Below, piece by piece: positions 36,386 to 43,791 of a DNA stretch of 64,000 nt (within the stretch, counting starts at the first letter, position 1; each line of letters begins with the position of its first letter). The stretch covers positions 3,410,001 to 3,474,000 of the forward strand of contig NZ_CP097291.1 in NCBI RefSeq assembly GCF_027595165.1, in the 5' to 3' direction. Position numbers and translations under genes: made by a program. The notes under the pieces are model-generated. The model was given only the letters and a program-made list of their open reading frames with translations. It searched no databases and was not told where the DNA came from. The stretch is from Providencia sp. PROV188 (GTDB taxonomy: Bacteria > Pseudomonadota > Gammaproteobacteria > Enterobacterales > Enterobacteriaceae).

Positions 36386-37804
36386 ATGAAAATCTCGAGA
36401 AGAAAACTATTATTAGGGGTTGGTGCTGCTGGTGTTATTGCTGGGGGCGCAGCTGTTGTCCCTATGATCCGCAGAGAAGGTCGTTTTGAATCTACGCCAT
36501 CACGCGTACCTGCAGTCGCGGGTACCGAAGGTAAATTACCAGCATCTGCTGATGCGGTTGTTATCGGTGCTGGTCTGCAAGGCATCATGACTGCGATTAA
36601 CCTGAAAGAGCGCGGCTTAAACGTTGTTATCTGTGAAAAAGGCGTTGTTGGCGGCGAGCAATCTGGTCGCGCATACAGCCAGATCATCAGCTATAAAACC
36701 TCCCCAGCTATTTTCCCATTACACCACTACGGAAAAATTCAATGGCTCGGCATGAACGAAAAAATCGGTGCTGATACCAGCTACCGTGTTCAAGGTCGTG
36801 TTGAAGTTCCTTCAAGCGAAGAAGATCTGGAAGTTGCAAGAGCGTGGATCAAATCTGCGTCTGAAAACCCAGGTTTCGATACCCCGCTGAGAACCCGTAT
36901 GATCGAAGGTCAAGAACTGGCTAATCGTCTGGTTGGTGCTCAATCTCCATGGAAAATTGGTGGTTTTGAAGAAGATTCTGGTAGCCTTGACCCGGAAACT
37001 GTTACCCCAGCAATGGCTAACTACGCAAAATCAATTGGTATTCCAATCTACCTGAATTGCGCAGTTCGTGGCTTAGAAACCGCAGGCGGTAAAATTTCTG
37101 ATGTTGTCACTGAAAAAGGTGCAATCAAAACCTCTCAAGTCGTTCTGACTGGTGGTATCTGGTCACGTCTGTTCATGGGTAACTTAGGTGTTGATGTCCC
37201 TACTCTGAACGTTTACCTGTCTCAACAGCGTATTACTGGCGTTCCAGGCGCACCAAAAGGTAACGTCCACCTGCCAAACGGTATCCACTTCCGTGAACAA
37301 GCAGACGGTACTTACGCGGTTGCACCACGTATCTTCACCAGCTCTATCGTGAAAGACAGCTTCCTGTTAGGACCTCGCTTCCTGCACGTATTAGGCGGCG
37401 GTGAATTACCATTAGAATTCTCTATCGGTAAAGACCTGTTCAACTCATTCACTATGGCAACTTCTTGGAACTTAGACGAGAAGACTCCATTCGAAGAGTT
37501 CCGTACAGCAACTAACACGCCAAACAACGACCACTTAGATGGCGTTCTTGAGCGTCTAAGAAAAGAATTCCCAGTATTTAAAGAATCTAAAGTTGTTGAA
37601 CGTTGGGGCGGCACCGTTTCTCCAACTGATGACGAGATTCCAATCATTTCTAAAGTTGAACAATACCCAGGCCTGGTTATCAATACCGCGACTGGTTGGG
37701 GTATGACTGAAAGCCCGGCGGCGGGTCGATTAACTGCTGAATTGTTAATGGACGAGAAGACATTTATCGATCCAACGCCTTATAAACTGTCTCGTTTTAA
37801 CTAA
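36386..37804 (+). CDS. Membrane-associated L-amino acid deaminase (FAD-dependent)
   Basis: A 472-aa flavoenzyme characteristic of Proteus, Providencia and Morganella. It oxidatively deaminates L-amino acids to 2-oxo acids and ammonia, passing electrons to the respiratory chain rather than making peroxide. The N-terminus holds a twin-arginine-like SRRKLLLG and a hydrophobic anchor (VGAAGVIAGGAAVVPM). A dinucleotide-binding fold follows at about residues 55-85 (ADAVVIGAGLQGIMTAI and a closing VVICEKG). FAD contacts are GGEQSGRAYSQ and the C-terminal NTATGWGMTESP. The body aligns by eye with Proteus deaminases. It is followed by a secreted RidA-family gene. Substrate class (aromatic or basic type) is not settled. 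Confidence 0.93.
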   Translation: MKISRRKLLLGVGAAGVIAGGAAVVPMIRREGRFESTPSRVPAVAGTEGKLPASADAVVIGAGLQGIMTAINLKERGLNVVICEKGVVGGEQSGRAYSQIISYKTSPAIFPLHHYGKIQWLGMNEKIGADTSYRVQGRVEVPSSEEDLEVARAWIKSASENPGFDTPLRTRMIEGQELANRLVGAQSPWKIGGFEEDSGSLDPETVTPAMANYAKSIGIPIYLNCAVRGLETAGGKISDVVTEKGAIKTSQVVLTGGIWSRLFMGNLGVDVPTLNVYLSQQRITGVPGAPKGNVHLPNGIHFREQADGTYAVAPRIFTSSIVKDSFLLGPRFLHVLGGGELPLEFSIGKDLFNSFTMATSWNLDEKTPFEEFRTATNTPNNDHLDGVLERLRKEFPVFKESKVVERWGGTVSPTDDEIPIISKVEQYPGLVINTATGWGMTESPAAGRLTAELLMDEKTFIDPTPYKLSRFN

Positions 37805-37826
37805 TTAAAACGAAACACAATTAGAT

Positions 37827-37863
37827 GGAACCTATCGAGCCCCTCACGGTCTTAATAGGTTCC
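37827..37863 (+). terminator. Hairpin between the deaminase and RidA-family genes
   Basis: Nine-bp perfect stem GGAACCTAT/ATAGGTTCC with a 19-nt loop. No strong T-run follows (TACTTTC). It may attenuate readthrough into the RidA-family gene or stabilise the deaminase mRNA; the next gene still begins only 25 bp further. Confidence 0.6.
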
Positions 37864-37888
37864 TACTTTCATATATAAAGGAGTTATT

Positions 37889-38392
37889 ATGCGCTACAAA
37901 ACTTTACTGCTTTCCTTACCTTTAGTTTTAGGTGTAGCAACTGCAAACGCAGCAGACGATGTGAAACGTGTTCCAGTTAAAGGTTTCCCAATCGCTGAAT
38001 CAGTAGAAATCAGCGCGAACAACAGCCTCATCTTCCTGAGCGGGAAAGTTCCTTCTAAAATCTCTAAAGATGCTCCAGAAGGCGTTTTAGAGTCTTACGG
38101 TAACACTGAAGTACAAACAATCAACGTTCTGAAACAAATTCAAGCGACTCTGGGTGAAATGGGTCTGACTATGAATGACGTTGTTAAAATGCAAGTTTTC
38201 TTAGTTGGTGGTGATGAAACTAAAGGAACTATGGACTTCGCTGGCTTCATGGCTGGCTACAACAAGTTCTATGAAACTGAAAAAGTGACCAATCTGCCAG
38301 CTCGTTCTACCTTCCAAGTCGCTAAACTGGCTAACCCAGCTTGGAGAGTGGAAATTGAAGTAACCGCAGTTCGCCCAGCAGCTAAAAAATAA
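37889..38392 (+). CDS. Secreted RidA/YjgF-family protein (probable imine deaminase)
   Basis: A 167-aa protein with a clear Sec signal peptide (MRYKTLLLSLPLVLGVATANA) followed by a full RidA domain. Domain features are SLIFLSGKVPS, GNTEVQTINVLKQIQATLGE, MNDVVKMQVFLVG and the C-terminal ARSTFQVAKLA, including the conserved substrate-site arginine region (LPARST). GGAG lies 7 nt before the ATG. Cytoplasmic RidA hydrolyses reactive 2-imino acids to 2-oxo acids. Here export and position straight after the deaminase gene suggest the same reaction on imino acids released in the periplasm. That partnership is inference; RidA-family members also include other functions. Confidence 0.85.
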   Translation: MRYKTLLLSLPLVLGVATANAADDVKRVPVKGFPIAESVEISANNSLIFLSGKVPSKISKDAPEGVLESYGNTEVQTINVLKQIQATLGEMGLTMNDVVKMQVFLVGGDETKGTMDFAGFMAGYNKFYETEKVTNLPARSTFQVAKLANPAWRVEIEVTAVRPAAKK

Positions 38393-38415: not shown

Positions 38416-38475
38416 AAAACGGCCGACTATTTATTTCCGCTTTGGCTTGGAAGTAAACATTAGCGGCCGTTTTTG
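38416..38475 (+). terminator. Intrinsic terminator after the RidA-family gene
   Basis: Outer stem AAAACGGCCG (38416-38425) with CGGCCGTTTT (38464-38473) and a T-run continuing into GTTTTC. The long loop contains a secondary pairing around GGAAGTAAAC. It ends the deaminase-RidA unit. Confidence 0.85.
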
Positions 38476-38598: not shown

Positions 38599-40065
38599 AT
38601 GATTAAAGAATCTCTGAAAATCCACGGTAAAAAGCAGTTTGAAATCAAACAGCAAGTCTTTTTCCCTCGAAAATCAAAAGAGATCCGCTACCAAGTTGAA
38701 ACCTTCTTTTTTCTTCCGGCATCGATGCAAGTTAACCCCGATCTCTACACCCCTTCAAATCTTCAGCGCAGCTTAAAAAACTATATCCGGCTGCGAGCCC
38801 CTACGGTGCAGCTCTCTTCTATTCCCGCTGTAGGTGGGTTAGTCGATGAATTGAAAAGCTGGTTGGAACGGTTAGATCCTGAATTACCGCCAACATTAGA
38901 TGAATATGAAAACCATCTAAAACGCTTTGCACTCACCTTTAAGCGCAGCGTGCGGTTAACCCTAAAGATGGTCGCTCAAAACTCACAACGGCAAACTGAA
39001 GAGTATATAACGGGGGTGTTGGCAGACATTGAGCATGGGCTCAAACGCTATCGAGAACTCAGCGCCTATGCAGCACCAATTGAAAAGGTCATTAAATCCA
39101 ACGCTTTCGCCTATTGCGATGAGTTTATGTCCCATTACACCTTGTTTTACTTACAAGATTTATTAAAAGACAAACAACTTCCTCTACGCGATGAAATTCG
39201 CCATCTGTGGTATCAAGAAATGCGTTACTTGAAAAAGCTAGCACCAGATAGCTTTCCACACGATGAAAACGACGCGGAAATGGTCACCTACCGCCGCAAT
39301 TTACTGAAAAAATATATTAACCGCTACCTCTACTTAGAGATCCGCCACAAACGAGGTCTCCCGCTACTTTTACACTCTATTTATGGTATTGCAGCCGCAA
39401 TTTCGATGGTTTTCGCTACATTTATTGCCTTTATGTGGCAAGGTAAATACGGTGCGCTCAGCGCTAATTTATTCTTAGCGATGGTGATTGGTTATATCTT
39501 TAAAGATCGCTTAAAAGAAATTGGGCGAGAACAGCTATATCGGTTATTTCAACGCTGGATCCCTGATCGTCAATTGCGTATTTATCGGGAAGGAGTAAAA
39601 GAGCCCGTTGGGGTTTGTAAGGAGTCATTCCGCTTTCTGAAAGAAAGTACCCTATCCCCTGATATTCATGAAATGCGCCAAAAATCCCACTGGGTGAATT
39701 TGGTCAATGTGCAGCGCGTGGAAGATATTCTGTATTACCGCAAGGATGTCACCTTGCACAGCAATTCTGCGGCCTTTATGCAGACTCAATCGTCTATTGT
39801 GGATATTACGCGGGTTAATATTTCAGACTTTTTGAAATATCTCGATATTAGCTATGAAGAGTTGATGGTTAATGATGATGAACCCGTAATTATCGGTGAA
39901 AAGGTTTACCATATTTATCTATGCCGCCGCGTCATCATGAATAAGAAAGCCTACAATGAATTAGCGCGTTTAGTGGTGAATGCTGATGGCATCAAACGCC
40001 TTGAGATCCTTCAGCCACTGGATGAGCTCGACAGCGACGAAGATATTACTATCCCACCGCAATAA
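38599..40065 (+). CDS. Conserved membrane protein of unknown function
   Basis: A 488-aa protein without a recognised domain. Residues 1-250 are soluble and rich in charged helices (for example ELKSWLERLDPELPPTLDEY). Two adjacent hydrophobic helices follow at about 254-279 (LPLLLHSIYGIAAAISMVFA) and 283-301 (ALSANLFLAMVIGYIF). After them come a basic stretch KDRLKEIGREQLYRLFQRW and a soluble C-terminal half of about 180 residues. There is no signal peptide, so both large domains are probably cytoplasmic on a hairpin membrane anchor. GGAAG precedes the ATG. It stands alone between terminators. I do not know its role. Confidence 0.75.
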   Translation: MIKESLKIHGKKQFEIKQQVFFPRKSKEIRYQVETFFFLPASMQVNPDLYTPSNLQRSLKNYIRLRAPTVQLSSIPAVGGLVDELKSWLERLDPELPPTLDEYENHLKRFALTFKRSVRLTLKMVAQNSQRQTEEYITGVLADIEHGLKRYRELSAYAAPIEKVIKSNAFAYCDEFMSHYTLFYLQDLLKDKQLPLRDEIRHLWYQEMRYLKKLAPDSFPHDENDAEMVTYRRNLLKKYINRYLYLEIRHKRGLPLLLHSIYGIAAAISMVFATFIAFMWQGKYGALSANLFLAMVIGYIFKDRLKEIGREQLYRLFQRWIPDRQLRIYREGVKEPVGVCKESFRFLKESTLSPDIHEMRQKSHWVNLVNVQRVEDILYYRKDVTLHSNSAAFMQTQSSIVDITRVNISDFLKYLDISYEELMVNDDEPVIIGEKVYHIYLCRRVIMNKKAYNELARLVVNADGIKRLEILQPLDELDSDEDITIPPQ

Positions 40066-40102: not shown

Positions 40103-40858
40103 TCAGTAATACAGCGCGATCCGTTGTCCATCCAGTTCTTTGACTTCCAGCGGCGTATCGAAAATTTCCTCTAAAATCTCGGATTTCATGATCTCTTGAG
40201 GCTCGCCATGATAAGACAAACGCCCATTTCGCAGCGCCACAATATAGTCTGAATACACAGAAGCAAAATTAATATCGTGGATAACCAGAATGATGGTTTT
40301 GCCTAGCTCATCCGCCGCACGGCGCAGTAATTTCATCATGATCACCGCGTGCTTCATATCCAAGTTATTCAGTGGCTCATCCAACAGCACATATTCGGTA
40401 TCTTGGCATAACACCATCGCCACATACGCACGCTGACGCTGACCGCCCGAAAGCTCATCAAGATAACGATGGCGAAACTCAGTTAAGTTCAAAAATGCCA
40501 AGGACTCGTCGATTTTCTGTTTATCATCCAGTGTTAAGCGCCCTTTGGTATAAGGATAGCGCCCGAAACCAACCAGCTCTTCCACCGTTAAACGGCTAGC
40601 AAATTGGTTTTCTTGGCGAAGTACCGATAAGCAGGTTGCGAGCTGGTCGCTTGGTGTAGTCGAGACATCCAAGTTATTCACTTTGACATAACCGTGATCC
40701 GCCGATAATAGCCGGCCAATAATCGACAACAGCGTTGATTTCCCTGCACCATTTGGACCGATGATTGAAGTGACACCGCTATTTTTAATATTGGCTGTAA
40801 CGTTATCTAAGACCTTAGTATCTTGATAACTTTTCGATACCTGATGAATTTCAATCAT
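40103..40858 (-). CDS. Siderophore ABC importer ATPase (VctC/FatE-like)
   Basis: A 251-aa ATPase of the iron-siderophore group. Walker A is GPNGAGKSTLL, the signature LSGGQRQRAYVAMVLCQ and Walker B YVLLDEPLNNLD. The segment VLRQENQFASRLTVEELVGF is typical of VctC/CeuD/YclP ATPases. It is the last gene of a four-gene importer operon, one base after the permease stop. It powers uptake of a ferric siderophore, probably catecholate, across the inner membrane. Confidence 0.88.
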   Translation of the reverse strand: MIEIHQVSKSYQDTKVLDNVTANIKNSGVTSIIGPNGAGKSTLLSIIGRLLSADHGYVKVNNLDVSTTPSDQLATCLSVLRQENQFASRLTVEELVGFGRYPYTKGRLTLDDKQKIDESLAFLNLTEFRHRYLDELSGGQRQRAYVAMVLCQDTEYVLLDEPLNNLDMKHAVIMMKLLRRAADELGKTIILVIHDINFASVYSDYIVALRNGRLSYHGEPQEIMKSEILEEIFDTPLEVKELDGQRIALYY

Positions 40859-40859
40859 A

Positions 40860-41843
40860 CTAAAACCTTCTTAACACCATATAAATAAAGAATATTCCAC
40901 CGACAAACTCGAGTACCACAGATAAGGTACCCGCTTTATTCAATCCATATTCAAGAACCAACTGTCCGCCCACTAATGCAATCACACCGAGTAGGAAAGA
41001 AACTGGCAATAAATAGCGATGCTGGCTGCTTCCTGCGATGTAGTAAGCCAAGTTAGCTACCATCAAGCCGAGGAACGTGAGCGGCCCCACCAGCGCTGTG
41101 GAAATTGCCACTAGGACAGAAATCAGTAATAAGATTACGGTGACTTGCTGACGGTAGTTAATCCCTAAGTTCACCGCATTGGCTTGTCCCAGTGCTAGCA
41201 CGTCGAAACAGTAGCGCATACGCCAAAGCAAAACGCCTACAATCACGGTGATCACCAACGTGAATAGAATCAGCTCCGGCGTTCCTTTAGTGAAAGTCGC
41301 GAACATCCGGCTTTGCAAAATGGAAAACTCATTCGGATCCATCAAGCGTTGCAGCAAAGTCGCCACACTGCGAAACAGTGTTCCGAGGATAATTCCCACC
41401 ATCAACACTAAGTTGATATTCATTTTGACGGAGATAAACAGCCAGCGGTACAACAATACAGAGAAAATCACCAGCAGGGAGGATTCCAGCAAAAACTTAC
41501 CAATATTCAACAACCATGATACGGGAAAACTATCGGTATAAAACACAAAGATAGTTTGCAGCAGGATGAACAATGCCTCTAACCCCATAATGGATGGCGT
41601 CAGAATTTTGTTATTGGCGATAGTTTGAAACAGAACCGTCGATACCCCAGACCCAAATGCCACAATGATCATCGTCAGCACGATATAACCACGATGAGGC
41701 AGAATGTACGCGAGATTACTGCCCAAATTAATGGTCATATACAAAATTATAGACAGCACTGACAGCGCAGCCAACAAACCGATGCGCTGGATTGGCGTAA
41801 ACGTTCTTTTCACTGGCAAACTTAATGAATTAACTTTTTCCAT
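40860..41843 (-). CDS. Siderophore ABC importer permease (VctG/FatC-like)
   Basis: A 327-aa FecCD-family permease with about nine to ten helices. Family segments include LQTIFVFYTDSFPVSW, GTLFRSVATLLQRLMDPNEF, LALGQANAVNLGINYRQ in the coupling loop and GPLTFLGLMVANLAYYIAG. It overlaps the upstream permease by 14 bp and abuts the ATPase gene. Together the two permeases form the heterodimeric ferri-siderophore channel. Confidence 0.88.
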   Translation of the reverse strand: MEKVNSLSLPVKRTFTPIQRIGLLAALSVLSIILYMTINLGSNLAYILPHRGYIVLTMIIVAFGSGVSTVLFQTIANNKILTPSIMGLEALFILLQTIFVFYTDSFPVSWLLNIGKFLLESSLLVIFSVLLYRWLFISVKMNINLVLMVGIILGTLFRSVATLLQRLMDPNEFSILQSRMFATFTKGTPELILFTLVITVIVGVLLWRMRYCFDVLALGQANAVNLGINYRQQVTVILLLISVLVAISTALVGPLTFLGLMVANLAYYIAGSSQHRYLLPVSFLLGVIALVGGQLVLEYGLNKAGTLSVVLEFVGGIFFIYMVLRRF

Positions 41844-42792
41844 AACGCTGATGCTTTAACAAGAGATAAAGGAAAATAACCGCGCCTACGACACCTAAAA
41901 TGACACTCGCAGGAATTTCAAACGGATAACGAATTAAGCGACCAATAATGTCACACAGCAGCACTAAGCCGCCGCCCGCTAAACAGATCCACGGGATAGT
42001 TTTACGAATATTGTCCCCCATCATCAAGCTAATCAGATTCGGGACAATCAATCCTAAGAACGGCAGTGCGCCGACAACGACCACCACCACACCGCTGATT
42101 AAGGCGATGATAGATAACCCTATGGTCATCACTTTCTGGTAATTCAAGCCGACGTTAACAGAAAACTCACGCCCCATCCCTGCCACTGTAAAGCTATCAG
42201 CAATTAAACAGGCTGCCAGTGTTAAGCCGCCCACCAGCCAAAGTAGCTCATAGCGACCTTGTAAAATGCTAGAGAAATCGCCGCTCATCCAAGCACCGAG
42301 TGATTGAAGCAGGTCGAAATAGTAGGCGGTAAAAATGGTAAGCGCACTGATTACGGCCCCTAGCATGATACCGACTAACGGCACTATCAGAGCGGACTTC
42401 AAAATGATCCGGCGTAAAATCAGCATAAATAGCGCTGTACCTAGCAGTGCAAATCCGCTCGCCACCACCATTTTGGTCATGATAGAAGCCGTTGGATACA
42501 GGATCATCACGAACAGTAAGCCAAGGCTGGCAGATTGCGTGGTACCCGCAAGGGAAGGTTCGATAAAACGGTTTTGGGTGAGTAGCTGCATAATCAGCCC
42601 CGCGACGCTCATGGCGCTTCCTGCAAGGATCAGGGCGGCGGTGCGAGGGATACGGCTCACGAAAAAGATATCTTGCATCTCGGGGTCGGTGAAAAGCGAA
42701 ACGGGTGACACGTCACCCGCTCCAATAAACAAGCTTAATACCGCTAATACCAATAACGCGAGAATACCAAAAGAGAGATAAAGCGTTTTCAT
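41830..42792 (-). CDS. Siderophore ABC importer permease (VctD/FatD-like)
   Basis: A 320-aa FecCD-family permease. Motifs are RIPRTAALILAGSAMSVAGL near the N-terminus, MGREFSVNVGLNYQKVMTIG in the coupling loop and the conserved VGALPFLGLIVPNLISLMMG. It follows the binding-protein gene by 3 bp and overlaps the next permease gene by 14 bp, so translation is coupled through the operon. Confidence 0.88.
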   Translation of the reverse strand: MKTLYLSFGILALLVLAVLSLFIGAGDVSPVSLFTDPEMQDIFFVSRIPRTAALILAGSAMSVAGLIMQLLTQNRFIEPSLAGTTQSASLGLLFVMILYPTASIMTKMVVASGFALLGTALFMLILRRIILKSALIVPLVGIMLGAVISALTIFTAYYFDLLQSLGAWMSGDFSSILQGRYELLWLVGGLTLAACLIADSFTVAGMGREFSVNVGLNYQKVMTIGLSIIALISGVVVVVVGALPFLGLIVPNLISLMMGDNIRKTIPWICLAGGGLVLLCDIIGRLIRYPFEIPASVILGVVGAVIFLYLLLKHQRYGKS

Positions 42793-42795
42793 TGA

Positions 42796-43791
42796 TTAAT
42801 TCGTTTTTTTCTTCTCTAAAGCTTTGTTTACATCATCCATTAATTGGGAATAAGTTTGGATACCACCAGCGATATAAACCGCTGAAGAATCTAAATAAGC
42901 CACTTGGCCTTTTTCCCATGCAGAGGTTTTTCTGACCAAAGCATTGTCTAACACGTCTGCCGCAGGTTGTGCATCTTTCGCACCAATCGCGCCATCACGG
43001 TCGATAACAAATAACCAGTCTGGATTCAGTTTTAATAACAGCTCTGAGTTTACGATATTACCGTGACGACCAGTATCTTCCGTGAAGACATAAGCAGGTT
43101 CGAAACCTAATACATCGAAGATAAAGCCAAAACGAGAACCTGGACCGTAAGCAGAAATTTTACCGCCGCTCACTAAGATCACCATCGCTTTGCCCGCATC
43201 AGGGGTTTTGCCTTTAATATCATTAATTTTGTTTTTGAAGTCAGAAACGAGTTTATTCGCTTGTTCTTCTTTACCAAATAAAGAACCTAACAGCGCCGTA
43301 CGCTCCATCAGGCTATCAATGAAACGTTTGTTATCAATGTCTAGAGAAATCGTTGGTGCGATACCGCTTAATTTGTCATAAGCATCGCGAGCACGGCTAC
43401 CACCTAAAATCACATCCGGTTTTGCACTGCTAATAGTTTCATAAGCCGGCTCAAATAAGCTCCCGCCATTAACATATTCTGAGGTGCTATATTTCTCTAA
43501 AAACTGCGGAAAATGGGCGTTAGTTTGTGGAACACCAATCACCGGAATACCCAGCGCATCGATGATGTCTAAGGTTTCCATGTTCATCACAAACGCACGT
43601 TGTGGATGGCTAGGAATTTCAGTTTTGCCTTGAGCATGTTCAACGACAATCGTTTGTTTTTCATCTGCTTTTTCTGTTGCTGGCTGCTCGGTCGTTGGCG
43701 CTGCTGTTTGTGTTTGCTTAGCGTCATCACAACCCGCTAACGCAACAACGGATAATAAGGCAAACCCTGAAACTAATGATTTTGCGAACAT
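42796..43791 (-). CDS. Siderophore-binding lipoprotein (VctP/FatB/CeuE family)
   Basis: A 331-aa periplasmic binding protein with a lipobox VVALAGC, so it is membrane-anchored after signal peptidase II. A linker rich in Thr, Pro and Glu precedes the TroA-type domain. That domain carries VVEHAQGKTEIPSHPQRAFV, TLDIIDALGIPVIGVPQTNAH, PDVILGGSRARDAYDKLSGIA and GPGSRFGFIFDVLG. These match FatB/VctP/CeuE/YclQ binding proteins for catecholate-type ferric siderophores. First gene of the operon, with a Fur-box candidate about 90 bp upstream. No outer-membrane receptor or siderophore synthesis gene is in the window. Confidence 0.9.
   Translation of the reverse strand: MFAKSLVSGFALLSVVALAGCDDAKQTQTAAPTTEQPATEKADEKQTIVVEHAQGKTEIPSHPQRAFVMNMETLDIIDALGIPVIGVPQTNAHFPQFLEKYSTSEYVNGGSLFEPAYETISSAKPDVILGGSRARDAYDKLSGIAPTISLDIDNKRFIDSLMERTALLGSLFGKEEQANKLVSDFKNKINDIKGKTPDAGKAMVILVSGGKISAYGPGSRFGFIFDVLGFEPAYVFTEDTGRHGNIVNSELLLKLNPDWLFVIDRDGAIGAKDAQPAADVLDNALVRKTSAWEKGQVAYLDSSAVYIAGGIQTYSQLMDDVNKALEKKKTN

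Follow-up and report, generated by a model that had tools for sequence, protein, structure and literature searches.

A membrane-anchored L-amino acid deaminase and a predicted exported Rid3-type protein as a recurrent gene pair in Providencia and its relatives

The deaminase-rid locus

The window considered here, a stretch of 64,000 nt from the 4.02 Mb genome of Providencia sp. PROV188 in which all positions below are counted, carries on its forward strand an L-amino acid deaminase (LAAD) gene (36386..37804, +, 472 aa) followed by rid, a gene for a RidA-family protein (37889..38392, +, 167 aa). The original prediction had placed a deaminase gene and a RidA-family gene 84 nt apart, and the open reading frames confirm both their order and their spacing. 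The first product matches the FAD-dependent DAO family of Pfam (PF01266, 5.9e-53), its closest solved structure is the L-amino acid deaminase 5fjm (755 bits, 1.7e-226), and it also matches structure 5hxw (3.3e-170); judged from these matches, it is a DAO-fold FAD protein nearest the Proteus LAAD structures. The Tat-like motif proposed for the deaminase is found as a twin-arginine N-terminus, SRRKLLLGVGAAGV. We assign a twin-arginine (SRRKLLL) membrane anchor to 36386..36475 (+) from this sequence, from a start of the form M-x-ISRRK that is kept in every one of the 30 LAADs adjoining a Rid in the named loci, and from the description of the class in passages of PMC5651824, by which an uncleaved Tat anchor tethers such enzymes to the outer face of the membrane. 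According to the same passages, the electrons taken up by LAADs are thought to enter the respiratory chain, with oxygen also usable. Of the 24 genomes of the genus, 20 also carry a second LAAD copy that is 57% identical; no Rid adjoins it in any of the seven genus loci or the eight Proteus loci examined, and one Rid could serve both copies.

The gap between the two genes (37805..37888, +; 84 nt) holds an AAGGAG ribosome-binding site for rid and a hairpin (37827..37863, +; −17.9 kcal/mol, z −2.4) with a 9-bp stem, GGAACCTAT/ATAGGTTCC, that is a possible partial terminator. A much stronger terminator-like stem with a T-run lies 3' of rid (38416..38474, +; −31.9 kcal/mol, z −5.9 by folding) and is the likely end of the operon. 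With the weaker stem inside the gap and the much stronger one after rid, a single LAAD-rid transcript fits the arrangement. A simple pattern scan with a loop limit of 8 nt listed neither stem, and a pattern scan for promoter-like sites gave no more than expected by chance (11 found vs. 9.1 expected).

The intergenic hairpin had been put forward in the original prediction, and it is indeed present in the window, but it does not generally accompany the pair. It is absent from all eight Proteus, Morganella and Xenorhabdus gaps examined, and since in this set it is confined to Providencia gaps we reject it as a conserved element. Within Providencia, 8 of 11 gaps hold a similar stem ending 25–34 nt before rid (found by script, with no covariation test), and in the gaps of loci L070–L083 the sequence of this stem varies by species while its pairing is preserved, which may reflect selection on an RNA structure before rid in this genus.

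Over five comparisons dN/dS was 0.05–0.14 for rid and 0.03–0.06 for the LAAD gene, dS being saturated in the Proteus pair. Convergent with the pair, a FecCD-type ABC system comprising an ATPase, two permeases and a Peripla_BP_2 lipoprotein occupies 40103–43791 (−); it adjoins the pair also in Providencia vermicola (L077), and it adjoins LAAD in genome G010. Between rid and this system lies a gene for a 488-aa protein with no Pfam match (38599–40065, +), which is missing from that place in both L077 and G010.

Family, residues and predicted signal of the Rid protein

The rid product matches PF01042 at 74 bits (cut-off 27) and is 100% identical to that of a Providencia rettgeri genome. Among solved structures it scores 116 bits against 9bka (PSPTO3006) and 95 bits against 9bkc (PFL1385), vs. 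35 bits for 1j7h (HI0719) and 28 bits for YjgF (1qu9) on the RidA side, and it reaches 54.9 bits against the NCBIfam model TIGR00004, which needs 106 bits. The original prediction had given it a clear signal peptide, and its N-terminus, MRYK-TLLLSLPLVLGVATANA-ADD, has by eye the form of a textbook Sec signal; the predicted peptide spans residues 1–21 (37889..37951, +), with cleavage placed by eye between ANA and AD. Across the linked loci the Rid N-termini are likewise hydrophobic, of export type and conserved (by eye), and of the five PF01042 proteins of the genome only the LAAD-linked one carries an N-terminal signal (by eye).

The alignment places Arg139 of Rid (codon at 38303..38305, +) at the position of the catalytic Arg105 of RidA. 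This residue is Arg in 96/96 aligned relatives, as is Glu at the equivalent of RidA Glu120 (96/96). Ile35 replaces Tyr17 of RidA, a substitution that serves as the Rid3 criterion in passages of PMC4433059; Ile stands there in 32/32 sequences of the LAAD clade (two Wohlfahrtiimonas proteins included), in 59/59 oxidase-linked rows and in one further LAAD-linked protein, L243, and the four relatives for which no oxidase was found nearby have Tyr or Phe. These counts are not independent events, since many of the aligned rows are close kin. By its catalytic Arg, its Ile for Tyr17 and its closeness to named Rid3 proteins, Rid is on sequence grounds of the Rid3 type, a predicted exported protein and predicted 2-imino acid deaminase. 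A PAWR stretch, which places Arg153 at the position of RidA Lys118, marks the LAAD branch (Arg there in 32/32 of the LAAD clade, and in L243), and this position is Leu in 53 of 59 oxidase-linked Rids. An AlphaFold model of the protein has a mean pLDDT of 61.7, and no claim here rests on it.

Linkage of LAAD and Rid across genomes

At E 1e-60 or better, LAAD was found in 24 of 119 genomes (the own genome included), all of one genus, and every one of the 24 genomes sampled from that genus carries it. In 23 of these 24 the gene immediately downstream of the LAAD most similar to the query encodes Rid. Only G010 (L213, L212) departs from this: its LAAD is intact and adjoined by the iron-type ABC genes, with no Rid between, and elsewhere it encodes another signal-bearing Rid that is about 50% identical and carries Ile in place of Tyr17. 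LAAD occurs in 2 of 30 genomes of the genus of Xenorhabdus mauleonii, in both with Rid 12 nt downstream. Another genome of that genus, G530, encodes a lipoprotein-like Rid lacking the Ile, and no oxidase was found within the 6.1 kb examined around it.

A class-level set of 369 genomes yielded two further LAAD-like proteins only, at 33% and 36%, both of which match from residue 46–50 on and are without the Tat region. They come from G823 and G842. In G823 the gene follows, at 44 nt, a PF01042 open reading frame that has no signal peptide; in this one contrary case found, neither the LAAD homologue nor the PF01042 protein carries an export signal, so that the compartments of the two match. In G842, the 1.5 kb on either side of the gene contains no Rid.

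A scan of named genomes anchored on Rid gave 65 loci, of which 30 have an adjoining LAAD (Providencia 11, Proteus 11, Morganella 5, Xenorhabdus 2 and one MAG). In the MAG locus (L098) the LAAD reading frame holds an in-frame stop. All 30 fall among the 34 loci with a Rid identity of at least 50%; the other four are Pelagibacterium and Brucella pecoris, with flavin oxidase and cytochrome c genes, and two Wohlfahrtiimonas loci with no LAAD, flavin oxidase or cytochrome c gene near Rid. The remaining 31 distant loci (L103–L133, Rid identity at most 39%) showed no LAAD. The survey of deaminase loci across Morganellaceae that the original prediction had called for thus agrees with it, the pair recurring in Providencia, Proteus, Morganella and two Xenorhabdus, and an absence of linkage in other genomes, which it had named as counting against the idea, was looked for and is contradicted. 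In seven loci inspected the outer flanks vary from genus to genus, and also between the two Xenorhabdus species, which indicates that conservation applies to the two-gene unit.

One further case comes from Pseudomonas, where L243 (in G622) has a second-type LAAD (79% to the own genome's paralog) about 77 nt upstream of an exported-type Rid. G622, which stands outside Morganellaceae, also holds an amine oxidase-Rid pair (L260, L283).

Oxidase partners of the wider Rid family

A profile built from ten Rids of this type and searched against 398 Pseudomonadota genomes found matches in 24 of them; with the own genome excluded, there were 24 matches in 23 genomes. Neighbouring oxidases, counted for the amine-oxidase type only, were located by tblastn with four oxidase queries (E 1e-8), and all 24 matches have a Tat-type flavin amino-acid oxidase at most 4.2 kb away. 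In 21 it lies within 0.75 kb on the same strand, in two, again on the same strand, at about 3.4 kb (with just part of the oxidase inside the stretch examined) and in one at 4.2 kb on the opposite strand. As a rough bound, a random gene would be this near to an oxidase about 3% of the time, taking 20 oxidases per 5-Mb genome. All four partners tested against Pfam belong to PF01593, vs. the DAO family of LAAD, and 22 of the 24 oxidase-linked Rids of this phylum set have an export-type N-terminus. The gene order flavin monoamine oxidase, cytochrome c, RidA is found in all three annotated plasmid records examined, out of 23 that match.

The genus of G408, which we call Pseudomonas from its PSPTO_3006-like and PFL_1385-like proteins, gave 40 matches in 38 of 149 genomes. 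Two of these matches were already in the phylum set, and the regions around the other 38 were examined. In 33 an oxidase adjoins rid on the same strand, in one (L243) a LAAD does, one lies at a contig end, and three have no oxidase within 3 kb on each side (for L270, less than 1 kb on one side).

A tree was built from 65 chosen rows, which include 14 LAAD-linked Rids out of 31 (not counting L243), 21 of the 38 Pseudomonas regions and one outgroup row on a very long branch. It unites the LAAD-linked Rids and those of Wohlfahrtiimonas in one clade (support 100/100) that lies among oxidase-linked Rids and has L243 as sister (99/89). Because the LAAD-linked clade is nested in this way, a swap of partner is probable, and the simplest reading of the tree would make the amine-oxidase type the older Rid partner and LAAD the later one.

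Among 60 oxidase-linked Rids, 44 have an uncharged hydrophobic segment of the kind expected in a signal, in four of them together with a lipobox; the 16 with no signal peptide all come from the genus of G408. The oxidases beside these signal-less Rids keep their twin arginines in all 15 readable N-termini, with 2–4 charged residues in the Tat core vs. 0–2 in 39 others. Charge content alone separates the two groups of oxidases (p 1.8e-9), in a post hoc comparison whose 15 signal-less cases are all of one genus; there is no difference in mean core hydropathy (p 0.23), and testing the oxidases for loss of the Tat signal by a hydrophobic-stretch threshold gave no significant result (Fisher p 0.33). 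A joint loss of export signals by Rid and oxidase is suggested by these data, but since two of the three tests separated no groups our case is not rested on it.

A proposed oxidation-hydrolysis relay and its alternatives

We think it likely that LAAD and Rid are encoded in one operon and act in a relay of oxidation and hydrolysis outside the cytoplasm. LAAD would travel via Tat and remain anchored, its active site facing the periplasm, as published for its class, and would oxidise L-amino acids to 2-imino acids with electrons thought to pass to the respiratory chain. Rid, exported by Sec and freed of its signal peptide, would be a periplasmic Rid3-type enzyme whose conserved Arg speeds hydrolysis of the imino acids to 2-oxo acid and ammonia, before the imines could react with cell components or diffuse away. 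The Rid3 proteins PFL_1385 and PSPTO_3006 are described in passages of PMC5619798 as cutting semicarbazone formation from the imines of Leu, Gln, Phe, Met and His in vitro, and Rid3 proteins as also hydrolysing iminoarginine in vitro. Given this activity and the outer-face position of LAAD, the exported Rid3 most likely hydrolyses the 2-imino acids of LAAD in the periplasm. The suggestion that an exported RidA would hydrolyse imines locally is well supported by comparison, through linkage, export-type N-terminus and catalytic Arg; a cytoplasmic location and a lack of imine deaminase activity are disfavoured by the signal sequence and by the activity of the closest studied relatives. From these lines together we infer that the two genes share a transcript, that Rid resides in the periplasm and acts there on the LAAD product, and that the cell benefits.

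The nature of this benefit is where the nearest alternative lies. The gain may be less damage, faster release of 2-oxo acid and ammonia, or both. Imines hydrolyse in water unaided, and what Rid adds may therefore be small. It is possible, though we lean against it, that the chemistry is as proposed and its purpose is another, with Rid raising the yield or rate of 2-oxo acid formation for iron-binding oxo acids or ammonia uptake, not for damage control. Passages of PMC11026637 and PMC5651824 report that in Proteus, Providencia and Morganella the 2-oxo acids made by deaminases act as non-classical siderophores, a role that is contested. The FecCD-type system with its Peripla_BP_2 protein just downstream is suggestive of such a purpose, but it is not beside the pair in the six Proteus, Morganella and Xenorhabdus loci inspected. 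Oxidase-linked Rids, moreover, occur in many bacteria for which we know of no 2-oxo acid siderophore role.

It is improbable that Rid is instead a non-catalytic subunit or chaperone that binds LAAD or the membrane and hydrolyses no imine, since the catalytic Arg and Glu are invariant (96/96). The PAWR stretch of the LAAD-clade Rids, whose Arg stands in all 32 and also in the LAAD-linked Rid of Pseudomonas, would suit such a role, as would a LAAO-RidA complex in the Chlamydomonas periplasm that is cited in passages of PMC5053998; yet PAWR belongs to one clade and hence perhaps to one event, and whole-cell catalysts use LAAD without a partner, as passages of PMC6527072 describe. Least credible of all is that the linkage reflects inheritance by descent, with Rid acting elsewhere on an unrelated substrate. 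Wohlfahrtiimonas retains a Rid without LAAD, as would be expected if so, but the pair stays joined in varied genomic settings, and both Wohlfahrtiimonas genomes hold an oxidase-cytochrome c cluster (L281, L282) that lacks an adjoining rid, with their LAAD-clade Rid elsewhere in the genome, so that this Rid may serve that oxidase from another locus.

The relay that we prefer is itself weakened by the second LAAD copy without Rid, by G010, by the Wohlfahrtiimonas Rids without LAAD and by G842, and also by the 16 signal-less Pseudomonas Rids whose oxidases keep the RR motif where it is readable. More tentatively, Rid3 as a whole may be a mostly exported, dedicated imine deaminase that works with two flavin-oxidase families, in which the LAAD lineage swapped its partner and PAWR provides a docking surface that takes the imine straight from LAAD; on balance we would not yet bet on this extension. 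If it were true, Rid3 would gain an in vivo role and periplasmic imine damage would be a real selective force.

Relation to known systems

The original prediction supposed the partnership to be undescribed, and this stands in part. For the LAAD-Rid pair we found no paper in the open-licence literature searched, which lacks most subscription papers, but clusters of an oxidase with ridA are already published, as passages of PMC4433059, PMC5053998 and PMC10805672 attest; the first of these notes that Rid genes (“RidA or sometimes Rid3”) cluster with FAD amine oxidases. The closest precedent is lao-cccA-ridA of Gluconacetobacter diazotrophicus, in which, according to passages of PMC5053998, a gene for a Tat-type L-amino acid oxidase of proposed periplasmic location is clustered with ridA. 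Its oxidase, however, is an amine oxidase-type LAAO (PF01593), whereas the enzyme here is a DAO-fold membrane-anchored LAAD (PF01266); it includes a cytochrome c gene, where the present pair has an 84-nt gap and no cytochrome gene; and those passages mention no signal peptide on its RidA. In Chlamydomonas, LAO1 with LAO2/RIDA likewise brings a periplasmic L-amino acid oxidase and a RidA into the same compartment, although in a eukaryote and with an H2O2-forming LAAO (passages of PMC10805672).

The Rid protein shares with the published Rid3 subfamily the catalytic Arg and Glu and the Ile for Tyr17 (passages of PMC4433059 and PMC5619798), and its closest structures, 9bka and 9bkc, are of that subfamily. 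In contrast to what we find here, the words “periplasm”, “secreted” and “signal peptide” are absent from the main text of PMC4433059 (2015), as are “periplasm” and “signal” from that of PMC5619798 (2017), and the passages concerned describe no LAAD partners. The in vivo role of Rid1–3 is stated to be unknown in passages of PMC4433059; linkage, residue marks and export signals now indicate for Rid3 both a definite source of substrate and a definite compartment. Should the relay be right, imines outside the cytoplasm matter enough for a dedicated enzyme to be kept.

Passages of PMC5651824 on the membrane-bound LAADs of Proteus, Providencia and Morganella agree with the present case in enzyme family, Tat anchor and outer-face placement, but mention no accessory Rid. 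If our reading is correct, LAAD from these genera, widely used as a biocatalyst, has an overlooked natural partner that might raise the yield of 2-oxo acid.

Two signal-less Rid genes of the own genome also have neighbours of note, one (L004) lying directly beside a DAO-family gene and the other (L002) directly beside a PALP-family gene. By eye we take the former neighbour to be DadA-like and the latter threonine dehydratase-like, both makers of imines.
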